Below, piece by piece: positions 3,821 to 62,300 of a stretch of 64,000 bases of DNA (positions are counted from its first letter, which is position 1; each line of letters starts with the position of its first letter). The position numbers and the translations under genes were made by a program. This DNA is from Siphonodentalium dalli (Eukaryota > Mollusca > Scaphopoda > Gadilida > Siphonodentaliidae), in the NCBI GenBank assembly GCA_032622095.1, contig CP136062.1, positions 141,068,351-141,132,350 of the forward strand. Direction: 5' to 3'. A model generated the notes under the pieces. That model made no database searches and was not told the DNA's origin. It worked only from the letters and a program-made list of their open reading frames with translations.

Positions 3821-4331
3821 AGTCAAAAAACGTGCCAAACAACAAAAACAAAGTACATTTCAAACATGGTCTCAGATAGCAGCGGAAACAAACCATCAAA
3901 CCGACTATGGTCCTACACCAAAAGCATGAAGAGTGATAGCTCAGGAGTATCACCACTGAAGAGAGATGGGTTTCTTCATAGTGACCCATTAACAAAGGCG
4001 GAAATCCTAAACAGACAATTCTCATCTGTCTTCACACAAGAGGATATCCAAAATATTCCAAACATCGCCGACATGGGTATCCCATCACTACCGAACATCA
4101 CAATGACAGAAAATGGAGTTGAAAAACTCCTAAAAAAACATCAACATCCACAAGGCCACTGGACCCGATGGCATACCTGGAAGGCTCCTCAAAGCAGTCG
4201 CAACCGAGATCACGCCGATGCTAACAAAGCTATTTCAGGCATCCATCGACCAGGGGAAGGTTCCATTAGAATGGAAACAGGCATACATCACGCCACTCCA
4301 CAAGAAAGGGGACAGGACAGCAGCATCAAAC
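3818..4331 (+). pseudogene. LINE ORF2: linker and start of reverse transcriptase
   Basis: After the frameshift the linker reads KYISNMVSDSS ... LWSYTKSMK ... LNRQFSSVFTQED, the standard stretch between endonuclease and RT in Jockey/CR1-type LINEs. A second shift at the A-run near 4130 moves coding into the frame giving ATGPDGIPGRLLKAV and WKQAYITPLHKKGD. The coding stops at AASN (codon N at 4329-4331), where the 2.2 kb insertion begins. Confidence 0.85.
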
Positions 4332-6484: not shown

Positions 6485-7755
6485 TGGCGTAATTATCGGC
6501 CAGTCTCTTTGACCTCCATCTGCTGCAAACTAATGGAGCATATACTACACAGCCGTATAATATCACATCTGGAGTCACATGACATTCTCACCAAGTATCA
6601 ACATGGCTTTAGGAAGAAACGCTCATGCGAGACACAACTTCTCTCAACTGTGGATGATTTCACCAGAGGTATCTTCGAGCAGGAACACTAGATTGACGCT
6701 GTATTGTTGGACTTTTCGAAGGCCTTCGACAAGGTGCCTCACCAACGGCTTCTGCTCAAATGTGAGAAATATGGCATCCGAGATAACACCTTAGACTGGA
6801 TAAGTGATTTCTTATCGGAAAAAAGTCAGAAAGTCGTCATTGAGGGTCAACACTCAAGCTCAGCAAATGTAACATCTGGAGTGCCCCAAGGAACTATGAT
6901 GGGATCATTGCTCTTCTTGATATATATCAATGACTTGGCCAAACACGTGACAGCGACACCTCGTCTATATGCTGATGACTGTTTGTTGTATAGATCCATC
7001 AAGTCGGAGAATGATGCCTTGGAACTTCAAAAAGATCTGGACCTACTGCAGAACTGGGAGCGAGAATGGCAAATGAAGTTCAATGAAGACAAATGCGAGG
7101 CTATAACTATCACCAACAAGAAGAAGAACATTATCAAAAGTCAATACTACATCCATGACAAACAGCTCAACTCTGTTACAACGGCAAAATACTTGGGGAT
7201 CACCTTCCAAAATGACATGAGTTGGAACACCCATATCAACCAAATGTGTGCAAAGGCAAACTCAACCACGGTCTTCATAAGAAGAAACTTATCAGGATGC
7301 ACACGGCTATCAGAGAGCGTTGCTACAAGGCGATGGTTCGATCCAGAGCAGAGTACGCATCGAACGTCTGGAGTCCACACACCGATGGAAACACCAAAAA
7401 GATAGAGAGGGTACAGGAAAGGGCAGCACGCATGGTTAATAACAACTACCACAGACGCAGTGGCGCACCAGCCATGGTACAATCGCTGGAATGGACACCA
7501 CTGAAGAAAAGAAGGGATATAACAAAATGCACCACCTTCTACAAATGTATCAACGAACTAGTATCGATTGATCACAAGACACTTCTCGAGAAGTACAAAT
7601 CATCATCACGTGGACATAACCAGAAATACCGACAACATCATACAAGGGTTGATATCTTTCCATCAGCGATAAGACTATGGAACTCCATGCCAAAAGAAGT
7701 AGTCAACTGCAACTCTCTAGAAGACCTGAATAGGGAGCTGCATAGCTGTGCCTGA
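6485..7755 (+). pseudogene. LINE ORF2: reverse transcriptase core and C-terminus
   Basis: Coding resumes at NYRPVSLTSICCKLMEHIL and continues through HGFRKKRSCETQL, LLDFSKAFDKVPH, GVPQGTMMGSLLFLIYINDL, the catalytic box YADD (6968-6979) and KYLGITF. A TAG replaces a sense codon just before the DFSKAFDK block. Near 7300 the frame shifts, and the C-terminal part (AEYASNVWSP, RVQERAARMV, FFPSAIRLWN-like block IFPSAIRLWN) runs to the stop at 7753-7755. All core RT motifs are still legible, so decay is moderate. No product can be made from this copy. Confidence 0.92.
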
Positions 7756-7937: not shown

Positions 7938-10494
7938 TTGGCTCTAAAACATCTTATACTATTGTTATATAAAAGAATATGGAGTTATTGAGGATATCAG
8001 GACATGACAGTATTACCTCATAATTATTATGTTTTATGGCATAATGCCCAATGTGTTTAAGTGCATGCATTCAGCATTTCCACATTTTATACTAATATAA
8101 TTATCTCCCTTTAGAGCAGTTTAGAGGTTTATTAAAATGCTGGGAATAGTATTAAATAATAAGAAACGGAACAATTCTTTGCTAGGCTTTTAGGGATGGG
8201 TCCCAAAAGATTGGGCGGAAAAAAAAGAAAAAAATTGCAGGTAGAGGGGTGGTGGGTCCCCGAGTGTGGCAAAAACATTTTTTTCGCCCTATATATGTAA
8301 ATGTTTTCCGCGACCCCCCCCCCCCTTGGCAGATACGGAAATAAACGTCATTTAGAACGATATTTAAAAACCTGTGTACCCTTCAGCACATTTTCAAAAC
8401 CTGTGTACCCTTCAGCACTTTTTTTGGTGAGAGTGACCCTTCAGCCATAGTATATATATAATAGTGATTGGGGGCGTAGGCGTACTATGCATGCATGGGC
8501 GGTTGTCATTAAAAGATGGGTATAACTTGGAAAGTGGATAGGACATATGTTTAGGCCTACTGTATAAATATATAATTAAATATTTATTGTTGTTTCGCGC
8601 AAGATCCGGTCTTAATATAATGTCGATTAATTGAATAGTTGTTCTAAGACATTCTACAATTTTGATCTTGAATAAATTTCTTGGGACACATTTTGTCGCC
8701 ATGCATATTATATAGGCCCGCCCAAGCAAAATTTTCAAGCTTGTTTTAAACAACTTTATATGGACATGGCACATGGCGCAAATGTTCCGTTGAGGGGCTG
8801 CATACATGCATGCATGAATGTCCTATCGTGACCCCATGGATGCGCTCGACGCAGGAGATGGTTGTATATTTTGTGTGGACTTATCTCAAATTGAGTCAAA
8901 CGCCAGATACATAACGGCTTTGACATACCAGGTCAGGTAGTATCGGTTTGTGATGGGGATCAAATAATAAATATCCAATACAATTTGGTTCTAAGGCAGT
9001 CGGAATGATTAACGCCCGCTGCTGAAAGTCAAGCGATATGCCCAAAATTGTTTATAATATAACAAAAACAAGTATCGAACATAATAGACGCATTGATTTG
9101 TTAACTCTAACGCGTGTTAACTCACTCTTGAGTTCATTAAATCATTCATCTAGGGACGTCGTGTGTTTGACAAGACTACATTTAAGTCCACCTTTGAATT
9201 GTATACATCCCTCTCGACTCGGACTTGATGTCCAAATTTTACAACTCTTTGAAACTTTAGTATATAGTATACCTTCATTTTCCATTTAAAAAACAAATCC
9301 AAAATTATTTGATTGGCAAATATTAGAATCTTGTCTTATATTTGGTATGGGGAATTGCTACAAGACCTATGTTCATATAGGGTCCCGTTTGAGTAAATTT
9401 TAGGGGTCACTAAGGTGCCGAAGATGGGGCTTTCATGGATTTCACCTCGAGAACAGAGATCATTAATTTTCTATATATGAAAATAATATATGGTAGAGCA
9501 TTTGGAAAAGGGCTATCTTCAATTTATCAAGTCAGGGGCTTCAGGGTGTCATATAGACATGTCATTGAGGTATGCTCAAACTTCGTAGGGGCGAAGCTAG
9601 AGTATAGAGCTTCGTGGTATTCCTGATATATGCATATATTATTTGTGACAGTTCCCAATACTCGGCATCAGACCGTTGGTCATAACCGCAGTTCGTCTGA
9701 ACCAATTTTAAAACGGCCGGCCGGGATACAGCAAATTGAAGAGTACTAAAATATCTTTCTTCCCATATATAATAGGGGCGTTTATATGTAAAAATTTTTA
9801 TTTTTGTGTAGTTTGTGGGCGTTAAAAATGGTAAAATTTCAAAGTTGGATATCATCTTTCTATAGGATTGAGTATTACTGGGGATGGGGTATATTTTTGT
9901 GCTGGGGACTGACCTGTGGATTTGAAGCAGCAAAGTTGAGGTGAACACCGAAGTACTTAATACAAGAAGAAACATTACATGTTTTGAGCCGCGTCTCCAG
10001 TGCGTATATCCTTCCTCGAAGCCATCTTGCACATTAATTTGGCTGTGTGCCTTAAGTTTAATACCACAATTAGTTCATTTGCCATTTGGCACTAAATTTC
10101 CAATAAATATTTTATGCAATTGGAATTCATAAATGCAAACATATATTGTAAAGGAACTAAAAACCGATTAATTATTCTTCATAAAAACTAAGTAGAAATA
10201 CCTTACATTATGTCGATATAACAGGGCTACCCTTTCTTATCTCTGCACCTTCATTATTCGATTTACTGAAGGTGCACCGAGCAACATCGAGTTACACCGA
10301 GCAGGAAAGAGTGAAATAGAGTACAAAGTGGAGCTAGATTTAAAGTGCAATTTATCAAATCGAGTACATCCACGTTTTTTCACGCAGACGACGGTTGGCT
10401 TAGTTCGGTATAGCTCAGGGGACCATCTGAGGTTACGATAGGTTACGAAACGTTTTCAAAATTGAAGACTTGATCATAAAGAATCGCTGATATT
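7938..10494. other. Intergenic, no firm gene
   Basis: This 2.5 kb contains a short direct repeat (aaacctgtgtacccttcagc at about 8370 and 8399), a C-homopolymer at 8316-8326, and a possible minus-strand first exon listed separately. A block at 10383-10430 (gttcggtatagctcagggga) recurs in reverse orientation near 33122, so part of it is a dispersed repeat. I see no other structure. Confidence 0.5.
9914..10032 (-). CDS. Possible first coding exon (N-terminal signal-anchor-like)
   Basis: On the minus strand an ATG at 10032 opens 39 codons that end at a consensus-like donor (CCACAG|GTCAGT, GT at 9913-9912). The peptide has a polar start followed by the hydrophobic run VMFLLVLSTSVFTSTLLL, resembling the short cytoplasmic tail and single membrane segment of a type II Golgi enzyme. 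No second exon was found downstream on the minus strand, and an overlapping out-of-frame ATG 5 bases downstream sits in a stronger context. It could be chance. Confidence 0.2.
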
Positions 10495-10959
10495 AGTCCA
10501 GGAGATATTGGTAGACCTCTGCACCCCCCCCCCCCCCAGGACTTAACTTCACCCCACTAATTTTCTTCCTTAAGGTCTCCTCTAATTTTTTTCACTTGTT
10601 AACAAGAACAAAAAGTGGCCGCAGAGACTCCAGACAAGATGGCGTCCATCATGGCGGCCATTTTTTTTATATGCACCAGGTTTCTTTGATCGCCGTTATA
10701 GTAAAGATGATGTCACATGCGGTCTTGTTTTCCGTTCGATTCGTTATGGTAATATACAACCCTTACAAATTAGCCAAAAATCCGACACAAAAATCCAATA
10801 TGGCGGCCAAGATGGCCGCCGAAATGTGAAAATTTGATATTTTTCGGACATTTCACCACCTTTCGTTTGTCTCTGTGGGAAAATATTGGCACCGTGACGC
10901 GATTTTATACATTTATCGTCTAGAATAGTCATTGGCGAACACACGAGGACCATAATATT

Positions 10960-12043
10960 TGTTACCCTCCTCTCTATTTCCCACCCTTCTGATTGGCCCA
11001 TGTCCTGTCACGTGCCGGGCGACAAATCACACTGTCGCCCGCTGAGCCGGGAGACATTGTTTTTGTCGCCCGCCTGATGTTATATTGCAAGAATATCTCC
11101 AAACACACACTGCAGTAACTCATCTATTTCACATCACTATACGTACTAAAAAATCATAGATCTTATATACCCCACGGATTCGTAATACACGCCAGTTGTG
11201 GTGTTTGCTAATTTGCATATATTTAGTGAACACTAATATTCGAACTTTTAAGTTGATATTTTTATCGGACAAGCGTTATTATTTACTTTTTACATCGAAA
11301 CATCTCGGTGAATCAATTTGTCCATGTCGACATTATGATGCAATATTGAAAGAGAGGATCCCTTGAGGTTGGTTGGTTATACATGTTTGCTGGTAGACAA
11401 CGTAATGCATACGTTTGTCGCGAATGAATGGTACTGTACGCTTATCCTCCGCGATGTCTGCAATGTGATCATAGAAGTATTTTATGTGAGGATCGCCATG
11501 GGCACCGACACATATGAATGTACATTAATGAAATTGACAACTTCCCAATAGCTTTTGGGGAAGACCGCTATGAAATGAACATCGCGAGTAAATTGCGCGC
11601 ACAAGACGACATTGAATATGCCACATTGCAGAAGACGAGAACATACCTATATGGCTTATTGGTTTACATTGCATGGACCGATATTGACGATTTAACCACC
11701 AAATTGATCGTAAATAAACGCGGATTATCAAACGCTTAACAGCTTGACTATCGTTTATGGAACAGAAATGCTATGGGACGATAAGTTTTACTGACAATAT
11801 ACATAATCGGGAAAGAAAGCACTCGTGACTCAGTGCAACATCGTGCGTGTGGATGGCAAGGATTTTATTCTGTGGTATAATCGGATAACAAAACAGTTGT
11901 TGCCCTTCTTCTCGGGAGACATTGAGATTTGTCACCCGCTCGAGAACGGAATGTTTCCCTCGGAGCTTCGCTCCTCGGGAGACATTCCGTTCTCGAGCGG
12001 GTGACAAATCTCAATGTCTCCCTCGACAACGGGCGACAACTGT
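10960..12043. mobile_element. 1.08 kb hairpin-ended element, copy A (nested)
   Basis: The undisturbed right arm of the host element reads ...accataatatatattcc, whereas the left arm has the same sequence split by 1084 bp flanked by ATAATATT (10952-10959 and 12044-12051). This is an 8-bp target duplication. The insert starts TGTTACCCTCCT and ends GGCGACAACTGT with no obvious long terminal inverted repeat. Its last 150 bp form a long hairpin centred on gagcttcgctc (about 11894-12039), with arms containing cccgctcgagaacggaatgt. A near-identical copy is at 26628-27716. Small frames at 11363-11739 are present in both copies but match nothing that I recognise. Confidence 0.85.
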
Positions 12044-12246
12044 ATAATATTCCTTGACGGATATTTTTGTCCGATATCACGTTTTCCCAAATGCCGGTAT
12101 AATCCGGTCAAAGCCAAAACGACGCTAATAACGCAATGTCTGTTTCGAATCAATGAGTGTTATTGCTATTATTACTCCAGCCATGATTATATATGTGCAG
12201 GAGATACTCGGGCTAGGATTCCTCTTATACCTGAGTTGAGGAATAT

Positions 12247-12810
12247 TCGCCCAAATCCAAGATGGCGGCCAAAATGGCCACCAGAAATAGAAAAATCACC
12301 GAAAATCGCTGATTTTAACATCAGTGAGAGTTATTGTCACGACAACTCCACACCTGCTTACTATTGTGGGTTGGGAACACTTAGTTGAATAACTTTCCTT
12401 ATATTGCATCCAAATAAAAGTCCCCCAAATCCAAAATGGCGCCCACAATGGCCGACAAATTTTGAAAAATCACCGAAATTCCCTCATGTTCACATCATTG
12501 GGCATTATTGTCGAGAAAACTCCACACATGCTGACAGTTGAGTTGTAAATACTGAGGTGAAGTAATTACCTTTCATCCCATGCAAGAAATGGTTTTCCAA
12601 ATCTAAGATGGCGGCCAAAATGGCGACCGATATTTGAAAACACGCCTACATTCCTTTACTTTCTTACGATGGGCGTAATGGTTTCGCGAATTCTACCCAC
12701 CATCACATGTTGATATGGAGTATTGGTATGAAGTATTCATTTGAGTTTGTCAATTGATACTCAAGGTCAGGATGGCAGCTAAACTGGAGGCCAGAAATTG
12801 AAAAGAAATC
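12247..12810. repeat. ~172-bp tandem repeat in the left arm (GGCGGCC cores)
   Basis: Four units each carry a core of the form aaatccaagatggcggccaa followed by an inverted partner (aaaatggccacc). The cores fall at about 12253, 12427, 12598 and 12770, giving periods of 174, 171 and 172 bp. The mirrored set lies at 15370-15950. AAGATGGCGGC matches the published YY1 consensus. Whether any protein binds here is inference. Confidence 0.85.
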
Positions 12811-13804
12811 GATATATTCACATACAAATTTCAACTTTTTGTCATAGTATCGATATGTATGGACGAAACTATACACAAACCATATATTAGTTCAACTTAA
12901 AACGTATCAAAACGTATAACATTGATCGGGTCCTTCTGGAAGTACGAAAACCCACACTTAATATAGCGATGTGTCATTTCGAAATCCATTTGATACTTCT
13001 AATGGCCGTAACCGTAAGTGCGCCGAATAACCACATTAGAACAATTACCTGGTTAAAGATTCTGATTTGCCACGTCCTTAATGATCTGGACCAGTTTCCA
13101 TTTCTTTGCCTGATAAATCTAGGTCGCTCACACCGACAAAGTATTCAACACTTCCTGTGAGAAGGGTCCCTTTAATCATAACGTTTCAAACAATTAATTT
13201 CCCGGTGTCTGGCTTAAGATTTTAGATGCTTGCTAAATATGGGATTTGTTCGTCATCTTGAACTAGAAAGGCATATGGTCGATAAGTATACAAGCTTACA
13301 GAAGGTCATCTCTATGTATGTCTTTCTCATACCCCGTGGGGATAATGATATGTATACATGGCGAACTTCCCAGTTAACTAGTCACTTCGCAATAGATGGT
13401 TCAACTCACAAACTTAGCGAACGTATTGGCATACGTGGACAACTTCGGCAGTGTTTCGGAGGTAGCTAGCTGTCTCATTCCCTTGGACAGATGCCTATCT
13501 GCTAAGGAGAAGACCATAATGTACCGACTACCCACACTTCTTGATCATGATCCTAAGCAAACTGTGTGACGTCCCGCAGTCGTATCGTCGAATAGCTCCC
13601 AGCAGAGAAGAACAATACTCGCGGTGCTAATTTGTGGACATGCGCCATGACAGTGGGAATGAAATGGGCCACGGTATACAACCCTACACCAGGTGCATGT
13701 TTCAATATAGAATGTCATGCGTGTTGGTCTTTTTGGTGTGGTAAGATTGTATTTCCACATCCGTTTCAAGGCCGTTCTGAATCAACATGACCAGACGTAT
13801 AATT

Positions 13805-14355
13805 TTGTCTGGATAATACTATCATAGCCAGTCGGATGGGCTAAAGGATAATGTCTTTATGGAATGAAGGTATGCATTGTTGTTATGATCTCTCAGGGTT
13901 AGTGTCAGATGTGGACGCTATTATTCAAGAAAATGTCAGGAACTGTGGTGCATTTATTTCACTGTGTGTTTAAAGAACAATTTATAGTCTCGATGGCATT
14001 GGATGTGGACGTTGGTGAACGTGACCTTTATGATCATATAGCTTTATATTATATAACTTTAGAATATAGTAGTTAAGATGTCTCATGCAGGACAATGGTT
14101 TTGAATGGTGATGTTACCAATAAATCACTTGTTGTACCCAACGTTGGTTAAACTGAATGCAAGATCTCATCAAAGTAACATTCCTCTAGATGTTCTTCGC
14201 GTTGAACATTTCACCCTTGTGTTGATGGCATTGTACTTTCTTGAACCATACCGACCACCGCCCAGCGTGAGTATGACATATTATCGGTAACTATCAAATG
14301 CATCGTCCTGAAGACTACATCCCAGTCTGGTGGGGCTTATATAGTAGTAGCCAAT
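13805..14355. other. Unique loop of giant foldback element, copy 1
   Basis: This is the only part of the element with no complementary partner in the same copy. It is shared, in reverse orientation, with copy 2 (about 43812-44950 less an insertion), so it belongs to the element. It gives the element an orientation. I see no intact open frame common to both copies. Confidence 0.75.
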
Positions 14356-15369
14356 GGTACACGTCTGGTTCGTTGATTAAGAACGGCTTCCAAGCGGATT
14401 GAAAGATACAATCTTAGCATACAAGGAAAGCAAAGCCACATGAGATCATGTCTGAATCTAAAACATACCCAAAGAAGGGGCGGTGCAGTCATGGTCCAAT
14501 TTCATTTCCACTATCATGACACATGCCCACAAACTAGCACAGCATGTATTGTTAGTATCTGCTTGGATCTGTACGGTGAGACGATTGATGGACGCCACCA
14601 GGACTGTTCTTATGGTCATGGTCAAGAAGTGTGGGTATATTATGCATTATGGTCTTCTACGCCATAGCAGAAAGGCATCCGTCAAATGTTAGGCTTTCAA
14701 CATTCGAAGCCATATACAGAAGTTGTCCGGCTACGTCAGTACGTGAATATGTGAATTGATGAACCATATATTGAGAAGTGGCTGGATGGGAAGATCACCA
14801 GATGTACAGTTTGTTATCCACATTAGATAACCAAATCTGAAAAATATCCCATATGTAGCATCTGAATTATACCATAAGCTACCACGAATGAAGCTCGCCA
14901 AGAATAAGGATAAGAATTCTCAGCTTTCGAGACAAACACGTGAGCTTGACACCGGCATATGTGTTGTTTGAAACATTCCGATTAGTGGGACCCTTCTACC
15001 AAGAAGTGTAGAAAACTGTGTTGGAGTGAGCGAGATAGATTAATGTGACGAGACGGATGCTGATCCAGATAATGCTGAATGTGGCAAATCAGAATAAGCT
15101 CAGGTACTGTTGTTTTGATTCTTGGAAGTCATAATATGACTATTCGGCGCACCCATATACGGTTACGACCATTATGGGCGCTTAGTGGAGAATGGATTTC
15201 TAAATGCCACATCGCGATTATTGTGGGTTTTCATCATTCCAGAAGGCGACGACCTATGTTGGAACTAATAGATGGCTTATGTACCGTTTCGTCCAATGCA
15301 TACATATTGATATTATGACAAAAAGTTGAAATTAGTATGTGACAATTTCGACTTCTTTTCAATTTCTGG

Positions 15370-15950
15370 CCGCCAGTTTGGCAGTCATCTTGATTGTGAG
15401 AGTTGGCCAAACTCAAATGAATACTTCATATCAATGTTCCATATGAATACTTCATATCAATGTTCCATATGGGTAGAATTCAAGTAACAATAACACCCAT
15501 AGTAAGAAAGTAAAGGAATGTAAGCTTGTTTTCAAAGTTCGGACACCATTTTGGCCGCCATCTTCGATTTGGAAAACAATTTCCTTCATCAGATGCAAGG
15601 TAATTACTTCACCTCAGTATTTACAACTTAACTGTCAGCATGTGTGGAGTTTTCTCGGCAATAATGCCCAATGATGTGAACATGAGGGAATTTCGGTGAT
15701 TTTTCAAAATTTGTCGGCCATTGTGGGCGCCATTTTGGATTTGGGGGACTTTTATTTGGATGCAATATAAGGACAGTTATTCGACTAAGTGTTCCCAACT
15801 CACAATAGTAAGCAGGTGTGGAGTTGTCGTGACAATAACTTTCACTGATGTTAAAATCAGCGATTTTCGGCGATTTTTCTATTTCTGGTGGCCATTTTGG
15901 CCGCCATCTTGGATTTGGGTGAATATTCCTCAACTCAGGTATAAGAGGAA
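15370..15950. repeat. ~172-bp tandem repeat in the right arm (mirror of 12247-12810)
   Basis: The same units appear in reverse complement (cores such as ggccgccatcttggatttgg near 15898 and ggcgccattttggatttggg near 15726). A short local duplication (catatgaatacttcatatca) at 15420-15470 is specific to this arm. Confidence 0.83.
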
Positions 15951-16584
15951 TCCTAGCCCGAGTATCTCCTGCACATATATAATCATGGCTGGAGTAATAA
16001 TAGCAATAACACTCATTGATTCGAAACAGACATTGCGTTATTAGCGTCGTTTTGGCTTTGACCGGATTATACCGGCATTTGGGAAAACGTGATATCGGAC
16101 CAAAATATCCGTCAAGGAATATATATTATGGTCCTCGTGCGTTCGCCAATGACTCTTCTAGACGATAAATGTATAAAATCGCGTCAAGGTGCCAATATTT
16201 TCCCACAGAGACAAACGAAAGGTGGTGAAATGTCCGAAAAATATCAAATTTTCACATTTCGGCGGCCATCTTGGCCGCCATATTGGATTTTTTGTGTCGG
16301 ATTTTTGGCTAATTTGTAAGGGTTGTATATTACCATAACGAATCGAACGGAAAACAAGACCGCATGTGACATCATCGTTACTATAACGGCGATCAAAGAA
16401 ACCTGGTGCATATAACAAAAATGGCCGCCATGATGGACGCCATCTTGTCTGGAGTCTCTGCGGCCACTTTTTTTTCTTGTTAACAAGTGAAAAAAATTAG
16501 AGGAGACCTTAAGGAAGAAAATTAGTGGGGTGAAGTTAAGTCCTGGGGGGGGGGGTGCAGAGGTCTACCAATATCTCCTGGACT

Positions 16585-16923
16585 ATATTGGCCACAAAAC
16601 GGAACAGAGTGCTTTTTTTAGATTGGTCATACATCAATGATGACCAATCTAATAAAACACTTGTAAATTTGACATATAATTAGAATCAATATATTATTAC
16701 TGCACATTTAATTAAATTTTAAGTTTTAACTGCAATATTTAAAAATGAGTTTACTAATAGTACTAGTAGGCCTAATAGTACTTTAACCTATTCACGGAAT
16801 TACAGAAGAGCAGGTGTATTACTGTATACAACTACTGAACTAATGGTTTATATGGTAGTTTTCAATGAGGAATTTGAGTCCGAATTTCATGGTGCATGCT
16901 GATTTTTTTTACAAAAGGGCCCA
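16585..16923. other. Spacer with a small hairpin
   Basis: AT-rich sequence between two transposons. It contains a short perfect hairpin, agattggtcat / atgaccaatct, at about 16619-16650. No gene is seen. Confidence 0.5.
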
Positions 16924-38652: not shown

Positions 38653-39994
38653 CACCCCCTTGTCTGTTTTCACGAATGTGTGATATGAAAGCATCATTTC
38701 CAACCTGTTATAAAGAGTATTCCTCATTTCTCAATGTGGTGACATTGCTTAAACAACTTGCACCAAATCATAAACATAAAACTATGGTATTTGATGTATA
38801 TGTATTGTTTTGCATGCTATGTAACCAATTACCAACACCATAGGTAAAATTCGCACATTGTTTCATACACACAACAATCACGATGAACATTTTGTTCTTC
38901 ATATTTTTCTTTAAACACATAATATATGGTCCCTCATTGCAAAAACTTTCCGCTGAAGGGGTTATAAGCTATGTTTTGGAAGCAGTCATCATTGTACTTG
39001 TGACACGTCATTGAGATGTTTCAACTGATTTATCATGCTGTTGAACTTATGGTTCTTATTGTATATGTACGGCGTCCCCACAATGAGAATACATTTTTGA
39101 GCTAAAACAGCAAGGTTCCAATAATGGCAAAATCACTGTGTCAATGCCTGACCAGTATGAAAAACGGAATTTAGACAAAAAAATCAACGTTGTTGGTACT
39201 CTCAGTGAAATGCACATATTCATCTTAGAACATTGCGAACATAATTCAAGATCATTAAATCTGACCACAGATAAACACGTTTTAATGATTTGTCAGGAAA
39301 CCTAAATTATTACAAATAGCCAGTAGTCCAGGAGATCATATTGGTCGACCTCTGCACCCCCCCCCCCCCCAGGACTCAACTTCACCCCACTTCCTTAAGG
39401 TCTCCTCTAATTTTTTTCACTTGTTAACAAGAAAAAAAAGTGGCCGCAGAGACTCCAGACAAGATGGCGTCCATCTTGGCGGCCATTTTTTTTAAATGCA
39501 CCATGTCTCTTTGATCGCCATTATAGTAAAGATGATATCACATGCGGTCTTGTTTTCCGCTCGATTCGTTATGCTAATATACAACCCTTACAAATTAGCC
39601 AAAAATCCGACACCAGAATCCAATATGGCGGCGAAAGATGGCCGCCGAAATGTGAAAATATGCTATTTTTCGGACATGTTACCACCTTTCGTTTGTCTCT
39701 GTGGGAAAATGTTGACATCTTTTCGTCATGTTATACATTTATCATATAGAGGAGTCATTTTCAACCACATGGGGACCATAATATACATTCATTGCGGGAT
39801 ATTTTTGTCCGATATCACGTTTTCCCAAATGCCGGTATAATAGGTCAAAGCTGAATCTACGTTAATAATGCGATGTAATGTTTCGAATCAATGAATGTTA
39901 TTGCTATTACAACAACACCCATGCATATATATGTGCAGGAGATACTCGAGCTATGATTCCTCTTATACCTGAGTTGAGGAATATTTACCTAAAT

Positions 39995-40535
39995 CCAAGA
40001 TGGCGGCCAAAATGGCCACCAGAAATAAAAAATCACCGAAAATCGCCGATTTTAACATCAGTGAGCATTATTGTCATGAAAACTCCACACCTGCTTACTA
40101 TTATGAGTTAGGAACACTTAGGCGAAGAACTTTCCTTGTACCATATCCAAATAAAAGTACCCCAAATCCAAAATGGCGCCCACACTGGCGGACAGATTTT
40201 GAAAAATCACCGAAATTCCCTCATATTCACATCATTGGGCATTATTGTCGAGACAACTCCATCCATGCGTACAGTTGAGTTGGAAATACTGAGGTAAAGT
40301 AATTACCTTACATCTCAAGCAAGAAATGGTTTTCCAAATCGAAGATGGTGGCCAAAATGGCGACCGAAATTTGAAAATACGCCTACATTCCTTTACTTTC
40401 TTAGGATGGGCATTATTGTTTCGCGATTTCTACCCACCATTACATGTTGATATGTATGAATTATTCATTAGGGTTTGGCAAGTGATACTCACAGTCAATA
40501 TGGCGGCCAAACTGGCGGCCAGAAATTGAAAAGAA
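39995..40535. repeat. ~172-bp arm repeats of giant foldback element, copy 2 left
   Basis: Cores at about 39995, 40165, 40340 and 40495 repeat the arrangement of copy 1. A 92-codon frame (starting MAAKMATRNKKSPK at 40000) spans two units and reappears in the mirrored arm at 47192-47470 (-). Confidence 0.8.
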
Positions 40536-41493
40536 GCCGATATTATCACATACTCATTTCAACTTTTTGTCATAATATCGATTTGTATAGACGAAACGGT
40601 ACATAATATAAGCCATATATTAGTTCCAATGTAAGTCGTAGCCTTTTGGAATGATGAAAACCCACAATCGCGATGTGGCATTTAAAAATCCATTCTCCAC
40701 TAAGGGCTCATACTGGCCGTAACCATATATAGGTGCGCCGAATGGTCATATTATGACTTCCAAGAATCAAAACAACAGTACCTGAGCTTATTCTGAATTG
40801 CCACATTCAGCATTATCTAGACCCGTTTCCGTCTCTTCGTCAGATTAATCTATCTCACTCACAACAACAGTTGACTACACTTCTTTGTAGAAGGGTGCCA
40901 CTAATCGGAATGTTTCAAACATTGAGAAACAATACATATGTTGGTGTCCAGCTCACGTGTTTGTTTCGAAAGCTTGGAATTCTTAGCGAGCTTAATTCGT
41001 GGTATAGCTTATGGTATAATTCAGATGCTACATATGGGGTATAGGCGTCATCTTGTGCGATACACTAGAAAGGTATTCGGTCGATGCGTATACTAGCTTT
41101 CAGAAGGACCTATCTATCTGCGTATTGTCAGCTTTGGTGACCCAATGGGGATAACAACGTGTACACCTGGTGATCTTCCCAAACAGCCACTTCCCAATAT
41201 ATGGTTCATCAATTCGCATACTCATCTAATGCACTGACGTACCCGGACAACTTCTGAATATGGCTTCGAATGTTGAAAGCCCGACATTTGACGGATGCAT
41301 TTCTGCTAAGGCGTAGAAGACCATAATGCATAATATACCCAAACTCCTTGAACATGATCATAAGAACAAGCTTGTTGGCGTCCAGCAATCGTCTCACCGA
41401 ACAGATCCAATCAGATGATAACAATACACACGGTGCTAGTTTGTGGGTATGTGTCATGATAGTGGAAATGAAATTGGACCATGACTGCACCGC

Positions 41494-42364
41494 CCCTTAT
41501 TATACCCCCTTTTTAAAAAAAAGGGGGGTAAAAAAAAGGGGGGTATACTGTTTTGCACCTGTCCGTCCGTCCGTACGCCCGTCCGATGTCTGTTCATGTC
41601 ATAACTTGAACAATAGTGCTCGGATCTCAATTAAATTAGGTATGGATGTTCACTACTATGAGGACATTAAATAGAGGGTTCCATCGTTTTGTTCGGATTT
41701 TCCATTCTAGAGTTATTCATCTTTGTTTATCTGGAAATGTTGGATTTTTGGTCCGTCTGGTGTCTGTTCATGTCATAACATGAACAGTAGTGTTCGAATC
41801 TCAATGAAATTTGGTATGGATGTTCACTACTACGAGGACATTAAAATGAGGGTTCCATCGTTTTGTTCGGATTTTCCATTCTAGAGTTATACATCTTTGT
41901 TTATCTGGAAATGTTGGCTTTTTGGTCCGTCTGGTGTCTGTTCATGTCGTAACTTCAACAGTTGTGCTGGGATCTCAATGAAATTTGGTATGGTTGTTCA
42001 CCACTGTGAGGACATTCAATAGAGGGTTCCATTGTTCTGTTTGGCTTTTCCATTCTAGAGTTATTCAAGTTCGTTTATCTGGACATGTTGGCTGTTTGGT
42101 CCATCTGATGTCTGTTCAGGTCATAACTTGAACAGTAATGCTCGGATCTCAATGAAATTTTGTATGGATTTTCACCACTATGAGGACATTTAATGGCATA
42201 TTCAACTGTTTTGTTTTTTGTGCTATAGTTATTCATCTTCGTTTATATGAAAATGCTGATTTTTGGGTCTATCTGTATGAGTATAGCAGTCATAAGTTAT
42301 AGATATGCCCACACTAGGCGGTATGCCACTAGGGGGTATGTACCGGACGACAGTCCATCTCTTG
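41494..42364. mobile_element. 'Tatacccccttttt' element, copy 2 (nested)
   Basis: Starts ttataccccctttttaaaaa with an immediate complement, contains CCGTCCGTCC and four tandem units of about 177 bp (41580-42290) carrying ttcggattttccattctaga, and ends accggacgacagtccatct. Comparison with copy 1 of the foldback element (cgccccttctttgggtatgttttag) locates the insertion. No clear target duplication is visible. Confidence 0.8.
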
Positions 42365-42476
42365 TTTTGTTATGTTTTAGATTCAAACAGGATCTCATGT
42401 GTGGCTTTGCTTTCCTTGTATGCTAAGATTGTATGTTCCCATCCGTTTGGAAGCCTTTCTTAAACAACTGGACCAG

Positions 42477-43802
42477 TAGTCCAAGTCTTCTCGTACTTTA
42501 GTCCGAGTTCCAGGCCCATGCATTCCTATGACACGACTTAAGCGTTAGTGACCCGCTCAAATAAAACCACAATTATATGAAATAAAATATCACAATTGCG
42601 ACAATAAACGGATATTTTCCGCAGAAGACATGCTATTTGATCTGAAACCCACATCAGTTGTGAATTGAAAGCGGTAATTTAATGCGAAAAGAGACATTTA
42701 CCGCAATGTTTAAAATTTTTTTAAAGTATGCGAACTCAGTTGACCTCGCGAACTGTGTTCGGCATTTTCCGTTGAAAATATTCCGTAGATTTTCGACTGA
42801 CAACGCAAATTACGATGAATTCTCCATTGTAATCGTAATTATGTGTGTCAATAAATAAAAAATAAATAGATTAATTAAACATTGAAGATATAAATGTAAT
42901 ACATTACATAAATTACGGGGAATTACAACCCTCTCAAAGTTTAAAACAGTGTAAACACAACGAGCATTAGAATAAATAATATGGTGCTACATTTCCCACA
43001 TTTGGTGGACTTCAGCGAAATTAAGATATATACTAAGCGAACAGAGCAATATACTGCTCTTGTTAAGCACACAAAAAATCAAACAAAATTTGTATAAATT
43101 TTTAACCTTAAGTTTGAAAAGTCCCACTGAAACGGAAGAACTATATTTCGAAACTGTGTGATTCGGTTCTCCGATTATTTTATCAACACAAAAGTCAAAA
43201 TGCACATGGATGAAAATCACACGCATGGCAAGTCAGACACAAGAGTTCTAATTTGCTCCAATATTGACAAGTTGCTTGCGAAAATTGTCAACAAAACTAC
43301 CTTTCTGATCCTCCATTATGTCATTAAGTTTTTAGTGCGGGAATTGTTCTCAAAGCACATTGGAAACTGGACTTTGCGGCGATCGGTTTTCACCATTTTG
43401 TTCGGAAAACCCCGCGCTATATATAGAAACGGAAACTAGAATACTCAGAACAAACACCGGACAATGCCGAAGTTCTTCGGAACCTGAGTTCGGCTTTCAG
43501 TTAAGTAAACAAACAGAAAAAACAACGATGTTTGTGGCAATCAACCGGAATATTCTATGTGTAATTTAACATTAAAGTTAGATTATTATACACCATTCTG
43601 ACCATAAGATGTCACTCTTTCCGACGTATATAGCATCATGTATTGCTTTGTTAGGTAAATCGAGTAAAATACACCACAGATTCCCGCCACAGATCCTGGG
43701 CGTAACTCGTGTCATAAGAAGGCTATGCGCGCGATCTCGGACAAAGTCCGGCACCTCCATCCCAATATCTTAGCCGGCTTTAGTACGAGAAGACTTGGAC
43801 TA
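42477..43802. mobile_element. 1.33 kb TIR element with 9-bp duplication, MULE-like (nested)
   Basis: Ends TAGTCCAAGTCTTCTCGTAC and complement are flanked by CTGGACCAG at 42468-42476 and 43803-43811. TIRs are about 21-25 bp with weaker similarity beyond. A 9-bp duplication suggests a Mutator-like element. No transposase recognised; the frame at 43158-43439 has no family match. Confidence 0.9.
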
Positions 43803-44153
43803 CTGGACCAGGTGTGTGCCATTGGCTACTGCTGTATAAGCCCCACCAAGACTGGAGTGTAGTCTTAAAGGCGATACCTTTGATAGTTGGTTGATATGTC
43901 ATACTCACGCTGGGTGGTATGGTTCAAGAAAGTACAAATGCCATCAACAAAAGGGTGAAATGTTCAACGCGAAGAACATCCAGAGGAATGTTACGTTGAT
44001 GAGCTCTTGCATTAAGTTCAACAAACGTTAGTACACCGAGTGATTTCTTGTTAACAGCACCATTGCGAACATTTTCCTGCATGAGACATTAACTACTATA
44101 TTCTAAAGTTATATATATAAAGCTATATGACCATAAAGGTCGCGTTCCCCAAC

Positions 44154-44747
44154 CAGGGATGGGGTAATTGTAATTTGTAATTGTAATTGTTTGTAATTAA
44201 TTACATTTTTTCAAGTAATTGCATGTATTTGGTAATTGAGTTTATTCTCAATTACATGTAATTGCAATTGTAATTGGTTAGGATGTAATTGTAATTAGGG
44301 TCTAATTTCAATTACTTCAAAATCACAGGTACTTGTTTTTTCTCAAAGTTCTCTTTCATGATTCATCCAATGGTTTCTTCAAATGTCAATGCCAATGCAA
44401 CACGCTGGAATTACCAGCTATAAATCATGATTCGCTCAGTTCTACGAACACCTATACTGGACTCAGTACATTGACTGCTCTGTACCAAGTGTGCTTCACT
44501 GTGTATTTCATCTTGCTTGTATTAAATTTATATTTTGTTATCAAATAGAGTTTATATAAATGAAAAGTGTTCCTACTTCAATGATGTGCTGAAATGTAAT
44601 TGTAATTGTAATTGAATTACACTTCAAAGTAATTGTAATTGTAATTAATTACATTGTGAAATAGATGTAATGGGAATTGTAATTGAAAAATGTTGAAGTA
44701 ATTGTAATTGTAATTAATTACATTCACAAGTAATTGCCCCAAGCCTG
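44154..44747. mobile_element. 594-bp hAT-like MITE with (ATTGTA)n (nested)
   Basis: Ends CAGGGATGGGG and complement of CAGGCTTGGGG are flanked by the 8-bp duplication TCCCCAAC (44146-44153 and 44748-44755). Just inside both ends is a gtaattgtaattgtaatta array, so the TIRs are extended by microsatellite. CAGG ends and 8-bp duplication are typical of hAT elements. Confidence 0.92.
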
Positions 44748-46170
44748 TCCCCAACGTCCACAGCCATTGCCATCGAGGCTGTAAATTGTTCTTTAAATAC
44801 ATAGTGAAATAAATGCACCACAGTTCCTGACATTTTCTTGAATAATAGCGCCAACATACTGACACTAACCCTGAGATAGGATAACAAAAAAACGCATACA
44901 TTCATGCTATAAAGACATTATCCTTCAGTCCATCCGACTGTTTTGAGGGAGGCTAGCATAGTGTTATCCAGACAAAAATGTACGTAGTTGAATCAGAAAG
45001 GCTTCGAAATACAATGTGGAAATACAATCTTACCACACCAAATAAAACCGACACGCATGACATTCTATATCTTAAACATGCACCAGGTGTAGGGTGGTGT
45101 ATACAGTGGCCCATTTCATTCCCACTATCATGGCACATGTCCATAAACTAGCACCGCAAGCATTGTTCCTCTCTGCTGGGAGATATTCGACGAGACAAAT
45201 GCGGGGCGTCACACAGTTTGCTTCGGATCATGGTCAAGAAGTGTGGGTAGTCTATACACTATGGTCTTCTCCTTAGCAGATAGACATCTGTCCAAGGGAC
45301 TGAGACAGCTAGCAACCTTCGAAACACTGTCGAAGTTGTCCACATATGACAATACATTAGCTGAGTTTGTGAGTTGACGAACCATCTATTGAGAAGTGAC
45401 TAGCTAACTGGTTCGCCAGGTGTACATGTCGTTATCCCCATGGGGTATGAGACACATACACAGAGATGACCTTCTGTAAGCTTGTATACTCATCGGTCAT
45501 ATGCCTTCATAGTTCAAGATGACGCACAAATATCATATTTAGCAAATATTTAAAATCGTAAGCTAGACACCGGAAAATGAATTGTTTGAAACGTTATGAT
45601 TAGAGGGACCCTACTCCCAGGAAGTGGTGAATACTTTGTCGGTGTGAGCTACCTAGGTTTATCAGACAAAGAAATGGAAGCTGGTCCAGATAATTATGGA
45701 CGTGACGTGGCAAATCAGAATCTGTTATCAGGTAATTGTTCTGATATAACTATTCGGCGCACCTACGCTTACGGCCATTATCGGTGCTAAGTGGAGAATG
45801 GATTTTGAAATGCCACATCGCGATATTAATTGTGGTTTTCATCTTTCCAGAAGGATACGAGCTATGTTATGCGTTTTGATACCTTCAAGTTGAACTAGTA
45901 GATGGTGTATGTACAGTTTCGTCCATACATACCGATATTATGACAAAAAGTTGAAATTAAGATGTGAAAATATCGATTTCTTTTCAATTTCTAGCCACCA
46001 ATTTAGCAGCGATCTTGGCTGTGAGTATCAATTGCCAAACCCTAATGAATACTTCATGTCACTATTCCATATCAACATGTAATGGTGGATAGAAATCGCG
46101 AAACAATAAAGCCCATCGTAAGAAAGTAAAGGAATGTAGACTTGTTTTCAAATTTCGGTCGCCATTTTGG

Positions 46171-47110
46171 TAGGGCTTCACGGTATTTCGGTATTTAGTC
46201 ATATCGCGATACTGTTTTTGACCCTGTGTAGTCGGTTTTACTTTATGCAAATAGTCGGTACATCGTAGCCGCCGGTGTGGATATTAATACCGACGATATC
46301 TCTATTGGTGTCAAGTATTTAGCAACCATCGACACCTCTAATGCTGAGACAAAGGCCATTGCTAACGGCTTCGGTTTAGCGTGGCGTACAAATTAATTAT
46401 TTCTCACTGCGTTTGTCAACACACTGCGGACAATCAAGTCGGCATGCCTTATTGCATGTGCGGCAATTGATTGTTCTCAGCTCAATATTACTGGAAGATT
46501 TCCTGGTCAAATACAATAAAAAATGTGTGGTGTTTTTATAATCTGGAGACACAATGACGCGCGTTCAACAGCGCCACAAAATATTATGCATTAGACGTAT
46601 AACTATAATGCCTAACCCATTAGATCATTATAACTACACGGCCATATATCAGTCCTATACATCGAAATGGATAAGTTAAAATAAGATACGTACGGACTTC
46701 TATTTTATGCTTGTCACATTAGTTATCTTGTTTTGTTTGTACAATATAAAATATGAAATCAATACATGTTTGCTGTTATTATTTACACGAGCAACTGTTA
46801 ATGTCATAAGCGACCCGCAGTTGGTAGGGAATTCCCGATTACGTCAGGCACTTATAAATATATCTATCCGTCGTATAAAGAACGAAACTCAGGACCATTT
46901 ATATTAATTATTTATGTTATATACCTGTCAAAGCAACATGTGTTCATAATTATCATTATCAAATCAATAATGCTATATTTTTGTCTGCTTGCTACTAGTA
47001 TTATTCTCAAACAGTTCTACTCAAATTTATTGGTGACGATATTTAGTCATATCGCGGTATCATTTTCAATACCGTAGTCGGTATTAAAATCCGGATACCG
47101 TGAAGCCCTA
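46171..47110. mobile_element. 940-bp hAT-like element (nested)
   Basis: Ends TAGGGCTTCACGGTAT / ATACCGTGAAGCCCTA are flanked by the 8-bp duplication CATTTTGG (46163-46170 and 47111-47118). Subterminal pairs such as tttagtcatatcgcg on both sides extend similarity in direct orientation. It splits one of the arm repeats. No intact transposase. Confidence 0.92.
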
Positions 47111-48802
47111 CATTTTGGCCGCCATCTACGATTTGGAAAACAATTTCTTGCATGAGATGTAAGGTAATTACTTCACCTCAGTATTTCCAACTCAACTGTA
47201 AGCATGGGTGGAGTTGTCTCGACAATAATGCCCAATGATGTGAATATGAGGGAATTTCGGTGATTTTTCAAAATCTGTCCGCCATTGTGGGCGCCATTTT
47301 GGATTTGGGGTACTTTTATTTGGATATGGTACAAGGAAAGTTCTTCGCCTAAGTGTTCCCAACTCACAATAGTAAGCAGATGTGGAGTTTTCATGACAAT
47401 AATGCTCACTGATGTTAAAATCGGCGATTTTCGGTGATTTTTTATTTCTGGTGGCCATTTTGGCCGCCATCTTGGATTTGGGTAAATATTCCTCAACTCA
47501 GGTATAAGAGGAATCATAGCTCGAGTATCTCCTGCACATATATATGCATGGGTGTTGTTATAATAGCAATAACATTCATTGATTCGAAACATTACATCGC
47601 GTTATTAACGTAGATTCGGCTTTGACCTATTATACCGGCATTTGGGGAAAACGTGATATCGGACAAAAATATCCCGCAATGAATGTATATTATGGTCCCC
47701 ATGTGGTCGAAAATGACTCCTCTATATGATAAATGTATAACATGACGCAAAGATGCCAACTTTTTCCCACAGAGACAAACGAAAGGTGGTAACATGTCCG
47801 AAAAATAGCATATTTTCACATATCGGTGGCCATCTTGGCCGCCATATTGGATTCTGGTGTCGGATTTTTGGCTAATTTGTAAGGGCTGTATATTAGCAAA
47901 ACGAATCGAGCGGAAAACAAGACCGCATGTGATATCATCTTTACTATAACGGCGATCATAGAGACATGGTGCATTTTTAAAAAATGGACGCCATCTTGTC
48001 TGGAGTCTCTGCGGCCACTTTATTTTCTTGTTAACAAGTGACAAAATTATAGGAGACCTTAAGGAAGAAAATTAGTGGGGTGAAGTTGAGTCCTGGGGGG
48101 GGGGGGGGTGCAGAGGTCGACCAATATGTCCTGGACGACAGGTTTATAATTACAAATTTAGGTGACAGCCATATTTCAGACTTTTTGCATGGCCATTGCA
48201 TCAGCACACATACACCGGGTTAAATCTGTCCACAGCATTTTTTATTCAATATATATTAGATTTCTGACCACAATGAGATGATGTAAACAGGAAAACACCA
48301 CCATGTCTCACAAAAGCAGTCACAATATTTAGAATGAGGAGAAACAGCAGTCAGTGTTCAAAGTTACCCCCAACTATTAAAGACTACACCATTTAAAAAA
48401 AAAAATGAAAATATTTTATAAGTAAGTTAATATATTGTAAAAAACAACATTTAGAGCGCTGTGGGAGCGCTATTTTTAAGGTCATTGTGTGAATGGAGAG
48501 TGACAGAAGCCATTAATTATCAACTGCCCACATAAAAGTTTCCAGGATATAACATTTTTCAAAAAGTTATCAAAAATCAAATTTTCCCTCAAAAGAAAAT
48601 ATTTTGGCCATATAATATACAATGAGAAATAAAAATATGAGAAATGAAACATTTCAATGGAGAACAAAAATATAAAAACATAACAAATGGACATACTATT
48701 TACTTTAAATATTTTTCATTTACCGGAACATATTGAAAACTTTATTTATAAAAAACATTCAATATTACCCCTGTGTTCAAAGTTACCCCAGTTTACGGTA
48801 TT

Positions 48803-49562: not shown

Positions 49563-49594
49563 AGGAGTAGATATTATTTTGTTATATACTGATG

Positions 49595-49790
49595 ATACCC
49601 AGAGACATCAAACATTCATGTGTGTTTAACAATAATCCATTGAATCCAATGATAATCCTATACAACATGGATTATTACTGTCAAAACACACATGAACCCA
49701 AAGTATTTAAATCATAATCCATTGAAACCAATGATAATCCATACATCATGGATTAATACTGTCAAAATGCACAGAGCCCAAAGTAAGTCT
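49595..49790. repeat. Tandem duplication of a ~105-bp unit
   Basis: The block ataatccattgaatccaatg followed by acatggattattactgtcaa occurs at about 49630 and again at about 49710 with small changes. No gene. Confidence 0.75.
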
Positions 49791-58989: not shown

Positions 58990-59380
58990 TAGTCTAGTCG
59001 TAATTCTCAGAAAAGACATTTCTAGAAGCATTTCCGCGGAAAAGTGTCAAACCAACTTTTTTACCATAATTTGAAGGTGCCGAACACGAATAGACTGCCT
59101 GTCGCCCGATTGGATGAACATATGGTTCAATAAAAGGCTTTTAAAATCTTCGTGTTTTCTTGGCTGGAGGGTTGTTGATACGGCACCGTACAACGTCATA
59201 TGAAATCACGTAACTGGCCTTGAACATACTCAAACTTATATACTCCTCGCGGAACGTTCAAAGCCGAGTTGTATCATTATACTATCATCACAGTAATAAT
59301 TCTGAAACATTAACATCATATTAATCAGACATTGCTGTTTTGTATATTTATCGACGATTCTCGTAAGAATTCGCTTATAG
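58990..59380. other. Spacer, no gene recognised
   Basis: No exon or terminus is recognised. It leads into the diverged foldback element. Confidence 0.4.
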
Positions 59381-59384
59381 TCAG

Positions 59385-62300
59385 GGAGCCAATAGGGGTA
59401 CCCTTGCACCCGCCCCATGTGACTTAACTTCACCCCACTCATTTTGTTCCTTATTATGTCCTTCAACTTTTAAGCAATGTTAATAAGAAAAAAAAGTGGC
59501 CGTGTAGACTTCAGACAAGATGGCGTCCATCCTGGCCGCCATTTTTCAGATCAGACCCTAAGTCAGTTTTATGCAAATTATAGCGGGAAAATCTAGTAAA
59601 ATGTATACAAATGTATATATTTTCGTGAAGCTAAGACATAATGACACTTTTTTGGCGCAAAATTGAAACTCACCCTCCAAGATGGCCGCCAAAATGGCCG
59701 CCGGAAGTTGAAAATATGACGTTTGTTTTTCCACAAATATCTTCTAGATCAGTTCATATTGTTTGGAACTGGTTGAGTAATATGACTTTATTTTGTGTTT
59801 TGTATATTAACTGATAATTGGAGCGGCGTGTATGAATACAGTATACAGCTAATTGCTGAATTGTCATGTGTGAGGTGTATATGCAAGTACGGAAGGTATA
59901 AGTGGCCGTGTGTGTGGGTATTCGTATATCTGGAAGGGCTCACCATTGGTGAGGTGTATATGTATACCTGGATTGACCCTATGGTCATGGGTATGGCGAA
60001 TATGTATACATGTAGTGGCTGTATGGTCCATAGTGAGATGAATATGTATGCACTGAGTGAATGTATGATCGTGAATGTGGTGCATATGTATACATAGAGT
60101 GACTATATGGTCATGTGCCAGGTGTAGGAGTACACCTGGTGTTCATGCATGTTGAATCATGGCTGTATCGTCATTTGTGGTATGTATGGGTATAACCAAG
60201 TATGGCTGTATGGTCAGGTGTACGTGTATAAAGTGGGTGACTATATTGTCATTTGTGTGGTGTTTATGTACATATGGAGTGACTGAGGTAATGGGTGGGT
60301 TGTACATGTGTACCTTGGGTGGCTATCGCTTTCCACAATAACTCAATTATATGTTAATCAATAGAGAGGTCATGTCAGAGAGTTCTCCATCTTTATGGTG
60401 TTTATGCACATGGAGGAAACGTTAAACGTGGAAAGCGTTAGCCACCCATTATCACACAGTCATTCCATATATACATAAACACCACATACACAACAATATA
60501 GTGACCCAATGTTTAAATGTACACCTGACCCATTACCACGGATGACCATACATCCATGAGTCACAATGGAGGCCCACCGGGTATACTCCTCAACATGACC
60601 CATAACCATATAGTCACTCCGTGTATACCCATGCATTCACCTCACGATTGGCCATACGATAATCCCCTGTATACCTATTCTCCACACAGATGGTCAAATA
60701 GACATTCAGTATATACATCAACACCACAACAATGACCATAGAGTCACTCCAGGTATACATATGCACCTCACCAATGGCCATATAGCCACTCGCTTCATAC
60801 ACATACCCTCACCCATGCCATCTGGTATACTCCTTCACCTGACATATGTCCATATAGTCACCCCGTGTGTACCTATTCAAAACATTCATACATGATCATG
60901 GTCAATCCTTGTATACATATTCACCTCATTATTGGCCATGTCACTCCATGTATCCCTATGTGTCGCACCATAGCCGAATAGCGACACAAGATATACTAAT
61001 ACACCCCAGCTATGTCAGAAAAATCACTCCATGTATGCATATGCACCTCACACATGGCCATATAGCCACTCGCTATATACACATACCCCTCGCCCATGAC
61101 CATATAGCAACACGTGTGTATGCCCGTATAACTTACACATGACCATACCGCCACGAGTCACCAAGCAGGAACACCAGGTATACTCATACACCTGACACAT
61201 GACCGTTTAGTCACTCCATGTATAGATATTCATTACATTTATGATCATACAGTCATTCCTTGTATACCTATATGTACTCATATCACCATTGACCATACAG
61301 TCACTACATGTATACCTATTCCACACACATAGTCATATAACCACTCGATATATACATATGCAGCCCACCCTAGACCATAGTCACTCCATGTATACATATA
61401 CACCTCACCAACAGCTATTCAGCCCTTCCAGATATACAAAAAACCTGCACACACGACCACCCATACCTTCCATACTTGCTTATACACCTCACACATGACA
61501 ATTCAGCAACTCACTGTATAATCATACACGTCATCCATGATCATACAGCTAATCCCTATACACCCACCAATGATAATACATCCACGAGATATATAAATAT
61601 ATACCACAAGGACACTCCTATATACCCACACGCTCGATAATGTCCACCCAGCTTACTCCATGTATGCATATACACTTCAATCATGACAGTCATTCTATGT
61701 ATACCTATACATATTACCCGTAACCATAAAATAACTCCCTATTTATCCACACACCCCACCCATGATCATACAGACAACACATGTACATCCAACCCATGAC
61801 CCTACAGTCACTCCATATATACATAATCAACACACAGATGACCATGTAACTATATTCATTATTTCATACATCACATCAATGTCCATACAGGCACATCGGG
61901 TGCACCCGTACTGGATATACACAACCATACAACATACAGTCACTCCATTCATACCGATTCACCTCACACATGACCATGACCTCTCCCTGTATACCTATAC
62001 ATCTTACAATGGACAACCCACAAATAACCATATAGTCACTCCTTGTGTACCTATTCACATCATTCATGACATACAATAACTCCCTGTATACCTATTCACC
62101 TCAACTATGATCATAGAGTAACCCACTGACTACCATTTTGGCATCCACCCTGCATCCAGTTGATATTTTTTGTTACCATAATGGACCAGAATAGCCAAAG
62201 ATTATGGTTCATCTCGGTTCCGTCTCAACGTTCCGCCCATTTCCATTCAATAATATGGCCAGAATCACAAAAGAGCTTCTCGGCAAAATTTCATACTTTA

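Follow-up and report, generated by a model that had tools for sequence, protein, structure and literature searches.

A palindromic foldback transposon family in Siphonodentalium dalli with 3-bp target duplications and a candidate partner element that shares its tips

A stretch of 64,000 nucleotides from the scaphopod Siphonodentalium dalli (assembly GCA_032622095.1, contig CP136062.1, positions 141,068,351 to 141,132,350 of the forward strand), which we call the window, contains two copies of a large palindromic element, copy 1 at 10494-16585 and copy 2 at 39324-48138. This palindrome is a real transposon family that has many copies in the genome and moves as a unit. It is likely that the element is a non-autonomous foldback DNA transposon mobilised in trans, that its tips have been exchanged and copied from end to end, and that its partner is Academ-like. 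Why some DNA transposons become huge palindromes is an unsettled question. This one genome holds an apparently ancestral form of the family, a tip-swapped form, a possible donor with matching tips, and a copy with a change mirrored in both arms. Because these forms occur together, arm-to-arm copying and a change of transposase become directly testable.

Results

A many-copy family with fixed ends and 3-bp target duplications

We searched the assembly (2.23 Gb in nine contigs) with the loop of copy 1 (13805-14355). The search gave 1668 first-look candidates, and the best 40, which were scored, were 97-100% identical to the query. From the 39 places outside the window we fetched the 20 with loops most like that of copy 1. 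The element was matched in all 20, in pieces of 92.7-99.1% identity. Both ends were visible in 16 of these copies and one end was absent from the fetched stretch in L014, L017, L023, and L026; these four, in which a tip could not be recognised, were dropped from the count of duplications. The boundary of the element was set after viewing the copy ends, and tips were then located by pattern near the expected places.

All 16 two-ended copies were flanked by an identical 3-bp target duplication (ATA, ATA, AAT, CGT, AAA, ATA, ATA, CTG, GTA, AAG, ACA, AAC, CAT, ACA, ATA, and AAA). With both window copies included there are 18 sites on six contigs, with 12 different duplication sequences. The element termini are TAGTCC...GGACTA, the family length is approximately 5.08 kb, and a consensus of 16 copies is 5085 bp long. 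Pairs of these termini with equal 3-bp flanks were found within the window only at copy 1, since a tip of copy 2 is changed, and in 171 kb of loci L009-L028 only at the foldback (15 rows). Since identical 3-bp duplications lie at fixed ends in every two-ended fetched copy, the family moves as a unit. The target sites showed just a weak C-AWA-G preference across the 18 sites. A preference for palindromic targets, hinted at by the flanks of copy 2, was rejected over the same sites (54 of 234 paired positions, with a null mean of 62).

A preliminary description of the window, made from the letters alone, had proposed movement as a unit, a 5-bp ATATT duplication, and boundaries at 10495-16584 and 39325-48137. 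It had also suggested a genome search with the loop and the collection of flanks from other copies. The first proposal is borne out, and the loop search recovered other copies with the same ends. The flanks from those copies contain 3-bp rather than 5-bp duplications (16/16), and the 5-bp reading of copy 1 was wrong: ATATT is the 3-bp duplication TAT (10491-10493 and 16586-16588) joined to the T and the A that end the element. Both elements are where the description placed them, but each extends one base further on either side, copy 1 by this T and A.

Structure of the two copies

The main parts of the two copies are as follows.

10494..16585, no strand: foldback element copy 1, subfamily A, TAGTCCAGGAG...CTCCTGGACTA, delimited by its ends and target duplication
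10494..10958, plus strand: first part of the outer left arm, 97.9% identical to 16123-16585 inverted
10959..12050, no strand: nested foreign insert in the left arm, outside the foldback family, with ATAATAT on either side
12051..13801, plus strand: remaining left arm, near identical to the right arm until about 12600 and then diverged
13802..14357, no strand: loop between the arms, with genome matches to 13805-14355
14358..16585, minus strand: right arm, in which about 82 bp of other copies are absent near 14843
39324..48138, opposite orientation to copy 1: foldback element copy 2, with the 3-bp target duplication CAG

Copy 1 folds on itself with an arm of approximately 2.2 kb per side and a loop of approximately 0.55 kb, as the preliminary description had stated. 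Positions 10494-10958 pair with 16585-16123 at 97.9%, and positions 12047-13801 pair with 16122-14358 at 77% over 1834 columns. The element had been called almost wholly palindromic. This holds for pairing over the 2.2-kb arms, but just the outer 1 kb or so is near identical and the insert at 10959-12050 is foreign. Within the arms there are tandem subrepeats of approximately 174 bp that are about 73% alike (12247-12482 versus 12421-12654). The approximately 82 bp absent from copy 1 are present at the same place in 20 of 20 fetched copies (74-84 bp by alignment). The second copy had been said to have the same arms and loop, and this was also the case; with nested inserts removed, copy 2 (4980 bp) and copy 1 (4998 bp) are 89.2% identical over 4903 aligned bases. 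The right tip of copy 2 has one base changed. The 1.09-kb insert in copy 1 has a 97% copy at 26626-27723. This 1.1-kb repeat has a long hairpin near one end, and at 26626-27723 it adjoins a stretch of a 174-bp tandem family and has no matching flank.

Two subfamilies that differ at their tips

Two forms of tip occur in the family. A tips were found in ten copies (nine fetched copies and copy 1) and B tips in six. One further B-tipped copy, L015, has additional repeats and was therefore left out of the consensus; the four one-ended copies were likewise omitted. Pairwise divergence averages 1.8% among the ten A copies and 0.56% among the six B copies. By this comparison B is the younger subfamily. 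Its body is of the A type, but the outermost 110 bp or so differ at both ends. The arms of A and B are 82.8% alike in the first 200 columns at both ends and 97-100% alike per 200 columns further in. Between A and B, 33 sites group the left end of a subfamily with its own right end; 32 of them lie in the first 200 columns and one in the next 200. At another 283 sites, all beyond the first 600 columns, each side groups with the same side of the other subfamily, and no site is crossed. The tips therefore changed jointly, and the inner arms retained their separate, old histories.

The origin of the B tips was examined by comparing left tips with those of an 8.8-kb element, described below as the candidate partner. 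Over the first 120 columns the B consensus and the partner agree at 110 of 110 aligned positions, and A and B agree at 79 of 110. Over columns 120-269, B matches A at 143 of 146 positions and the partner at 85 of 149. The change-over point of B lies in TGTTAACAAGAAAAAAAAGTGGCCGC, a block that the partner has in common with A, B, and copy 2. The tips of copy 2, which is more diverged than any other copy seen, are of the A type (99/106 versus A), and for this reason A looks ancestral. This pattern suggests that the foldback captured partner-type tips.

Two loci with B tips have unusual layouts. In L048 (G000:C9:27061293) the B-tipped foldback match ends after 991 bp, close to where homogenisation of the outer arm, described in the next section, gives way to divergence. 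At G000:C6:110465742-110487875 there are two B tips 22 kb apart, each followed by a foldback arm; they may belong to a single copy that carries a very large nested insert.

Identity between the arms is highest at the tips

In the A consensus, left-right identity per 200 columns from the tip inward is 1.000, 1.000,.985,.985,.975,.843,.831, and.728. The outer 1 kb or so of the arms is 97.5-100% identical, the inner part is 69-84% identical, and a last short block is 58% identical. The outer arms are, on this profile, homogenised, and the inner arms are old and diverged. When A was compared with copy 2, the two ends of the same copy were grouped at 73 sites, most of them in the outer 1 kb; left and right identity was kept at 136 sites, and six sites were crossed. 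The copy L015 carries a tandem duplication of approximately 375 bp at the same arm positions on both sides.

Coding capacity of the foldback and a candidate partner

The longest stop-free stretch of the consensus is 165 amino acids long; in 100 mononucleotide shuffles the mean was 106 and the maximum 175. Ten stop-free stretches from the window, five of which lie in the two elements, were searched against Pfam, and the sole hits were outside the elements (pieces of endonuclease and reverse transcriptase). Thus, neither the Pfam search nor the comparison with shuffles found a transposase encoded inside the foldback, in agreement with the preliminary description, and the foldback apparently encodes no protein. 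Scanning the window with Rfam and for tRNAs gave no hits. The consensus has 14 matches on both strands to AA[GA]ATGGC[CGA][GAC]C, which we take to be the YY1 motif, versus 0.03 in shuffles.

The preliminary description had placed the source of the transposase in trans and had suggested a search for a coding partner that shares the termini. We searched the genome with the B tip (108 bp) and scored the best 40 of 1120 candidates, 30 of which had loci. At 28 of these 30 loci the match continues into a foldback arm. The other two, L030 and L049, match over only about 166 bp and are the two ends of one 8783-bp element (C8:165397155-165405937) with B-type tips. This element is flanked by ATA/ATA and has terminal inverted repeats (TIRs) of approximately 1.1 kb at 96.7% identity and an uninterrupted frame of 1562 amino acids. 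Mobilisation in trans is supported, although not proven, by this find.

A genome search with the partner protein, in which the best 31 of 4373 candidates were scored, gave 40 matches: the protein itself at 100% and 39 others at 32-70%, 11 of these without an internal stop. Such a pattern would be expected of a mobile gene of several families. A search of viral contigs turned up nothing related to the partner protein. Academ proteins are large, and the size of the partner protein together with its C-terminal row of motifs (EETDTR, SPDSD, and TGED) may point to an Academ protein that includes an XPG-like nuclease. We consider an Academ element of the AcademX type the most likely identity of the partner.

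Other features of the window

Copy 2 contains four nested inserts, and clear duplications flank three of them (9, 8, and 8 bp). These inserts and the tip of a third element are listed here.

41502..42367, no strand: nested insert in copy 2 that holds a 174-bp tandem array; no clear target duplication
42477..43811, no strand: nested insert in copy 2 with TIR TAGTCCAAGTCTTCTCGTAC and 9-bp duplication CTGGACCAG; presumably MULE-like, judged by duplication length
44154..44755, no strand: nested insert in copy 2 with CAGG...CCTG ends and 8-bp duplication TCCCCAAC; presumably hAT-like
46171..47118, no strand: nested insert in copy 2 with TAGGGCTTCACGGTAT ends and 8-bp duplication CATTTTGG
59378..59545, plus strand: terminal tip of a third element, 85.7% identical to the partner tip, with a different body

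The 174-bp tandem array occurs in an inserted unit at two places in the window (41579-42275 and 25952-26630), and we presume a resemblance of this unit to satellite-carrying elements of bivalves. The third element (59378-63148) starts with TAGTCAGGGAGCC and continues with inverted minisatellite blocks, in which 59705-59824 and 63033-63148 are paired at 89% identity. No right end of this element was found within the window, and it may be another foldback of this group. Pieces of non-long terminal repeat retrotransposons (endonuclease and reverse transcriptase) lie at 3057-3821 and 6692-7405 on the plus strand and at 49197-49607 on the minus strand; the match at 49197-49607 is slightly below the Pfam cut-off.

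Discussion

Proposed mechanism

We propose that transposase is supplied in trans by larger elements that share tips of approximately 110-130 bp with the foldback. The partner enzyme would recognise these tips and would cut and paste the whole palindrome. A foreign tip may have been captured by recombination at the shared block and then copied to the other end through the palindrome. Because arm identity peaks at the tips and falls inward, this copying would probably have occurred during repair of the excision gap. The resulting chimera of A body and B tips would then have spread recently.

Quite possibly, although we put this forward only tentatively, the terminal 110-130 bp act as exchangeable mobility cassettes: a palindromic body would change its mobilising enzyme by taking up a foreign tip, which the palindrome would copy across. 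If so, one recombination can re-launch an old family, and B would be a re-launch caught within approximately 0.6% divergence, with the likely donor still present and its frame open.

Several observations weigh against the reading of a foldback mobilised in trans by an Academ-like partner with exchanged tips. In the stretch compared, the right tip of the partner differs from B by one base and by one C of a C-run. The partner is the single non-foldback element with B tips among the 30 loci of the best 40 matches, and 28 of the 39 further matches to its protein contain internal stops. No domain was found in the partner protein with Pfam or NCBIfam, and the best E values were 0.23 with PHROGs and 0.26 with PDB. 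Aligning its C-terminal part with four archaeal FEN-1 chains in hhalign gave nothing, which, with a single sequence, is a weak test. These searches thus confirm for this protein neither the core of a transposase nor an XPG-like nuclease. The duplication breakpoints in L015 lie in about 43 bp where two repeats resemble each other, and the mirrored duplication could, from the look of these repeats, have arisen twice independently. Variants private to one copy, counted in 16 copies with L015 and e2 excluded, number 136 in one arm and two in both (0.3 expected by chance, P = 0.03). The sample was made up of copies with loops most like copy 1, which biases ages and counts to young copies, and no excision or insertion event was observed.

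The counts of private variants leave arm conversion after insertion unsupported as a main force. Since so few of these variants are in both arms, arm copying belongs to the mobile phase or to a few source elements.

Alternative explanations

The identity of the enzyme admits a different answer, which we regard as possible but doubtful: that it belongs to another superfamily with 3-bp duplications (PIF/Harbinger, Zator, or CACTA) or to an undescribed one, and not to Academ. The 3-bp duplications here also fit Harbinger and Zator, according to the sections consulted of PMC12730594 and PMC10045372, and no domain was recognised in the partner protein. PIF/Harbinger agrees with the element in its 3-bp duplication, and the Pfam search of the partner protein gave no match to a Harbinger-type nuclease or to any other model. 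CACTA/EnSpm elements end in CAC...GTG, as given in the part of PMC12730594 consulted, whereas the termini here are TAGTCC...GGACTA.

It is also conceivable, although unlikely, that the exchange went in reverse and foldback subfamily B was the source of the tips of the 8.8-kb element. The left-tip block is identical in both (110/110) and gives no direction alone. Copy 2, the most diverged copy seen, has both A-type tips and an A-type body, and the different element at 59378 has partner-like tips (98/110 versus the partner) on a body that is not of the foldback family. Both observations argue for capture by the foldback.

The long, internally repeated palindromic arms resemble classic foldbacks of the Mutator (MULE) or P/Galileo kind, and a swap of tips at both ends is also reported for Galileo in the portion of PMC3573991 consulted. 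We nevertheless think it very improbable that a MULE or P transposase moves this element, given that the duplication is 3 bp at 18 of 18 sites versus 7 bp for Galileo in Drosophila mojavensis (PMC3573991, same portion) and that Pfam found no such domain in the partner protein. Finally, local inverted duplication or an assembly palindrome might be suggested by two copies lying in opposite orientation within one 64-kb window, and is refuted by fixed ends with identical 3-bp duplications at 18 sites on six contigs.

Comparison with known systems

The element has the features of the foldback structural class, with long inverted repeats that fill most of its length, subrepeats in the arms, and flanking target duplications. 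MULE target duplications are usually 9 bp long, and those of the P superfamily and Galileo are 7-8 bp. With 3-bp duplications, the foldback described here falls outside the MULE and P groups. Foldback/FB, Tetris, and Tm1, which are Mutator-related or foldback elements, share with it a palindromic architecture and little coding capacity, and differ from it in having the 9-bp duplications of MULEs.

The duplication length does agree with AcademX, for which the part of PMC10045372 consulted gives 3-4 bp. Academ elements are described as amplified and abundant in bivalves, with a mean length of 5.6 kb (PMC10294476, in part), versus 8.8 kb for the partner. Our literature search found no foldback of the Academ superfamily, which does not show that none is in print.

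There are further likenesses to Galileo. According to the portions of PMC3573991 and PMC4168063 consulted, Galileo also has long, internally repeated TIRs, tandem repeats inside the TIRs, and many copies without transposase. In D. mojavensis the centre of one Galileo subfamily is 98% like that of another and the terminal 570 bp of each TIR are 77% alike (PMC3573991, in part). In D. willistoni, pieces of transposable elements are present in both TIRs, having been carried across from one to the other (PMC4168063, in part), which is a further likeness. The differences are the 7-bp duplications of Galileo (PMC3573991, in part) versus 3 bp here, and its P-type transposase with a THAP domain (PMC3688188, in part) versus a frame of 1562 amino acids without a match. 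Because these Galileo precedents are published, a swap of tips does not represent a new type of event. What is new, as far as our literature search shows, is a 3-bp duplication class for a foldback and the presence in the same genome of an element with matching tips and an open frame.

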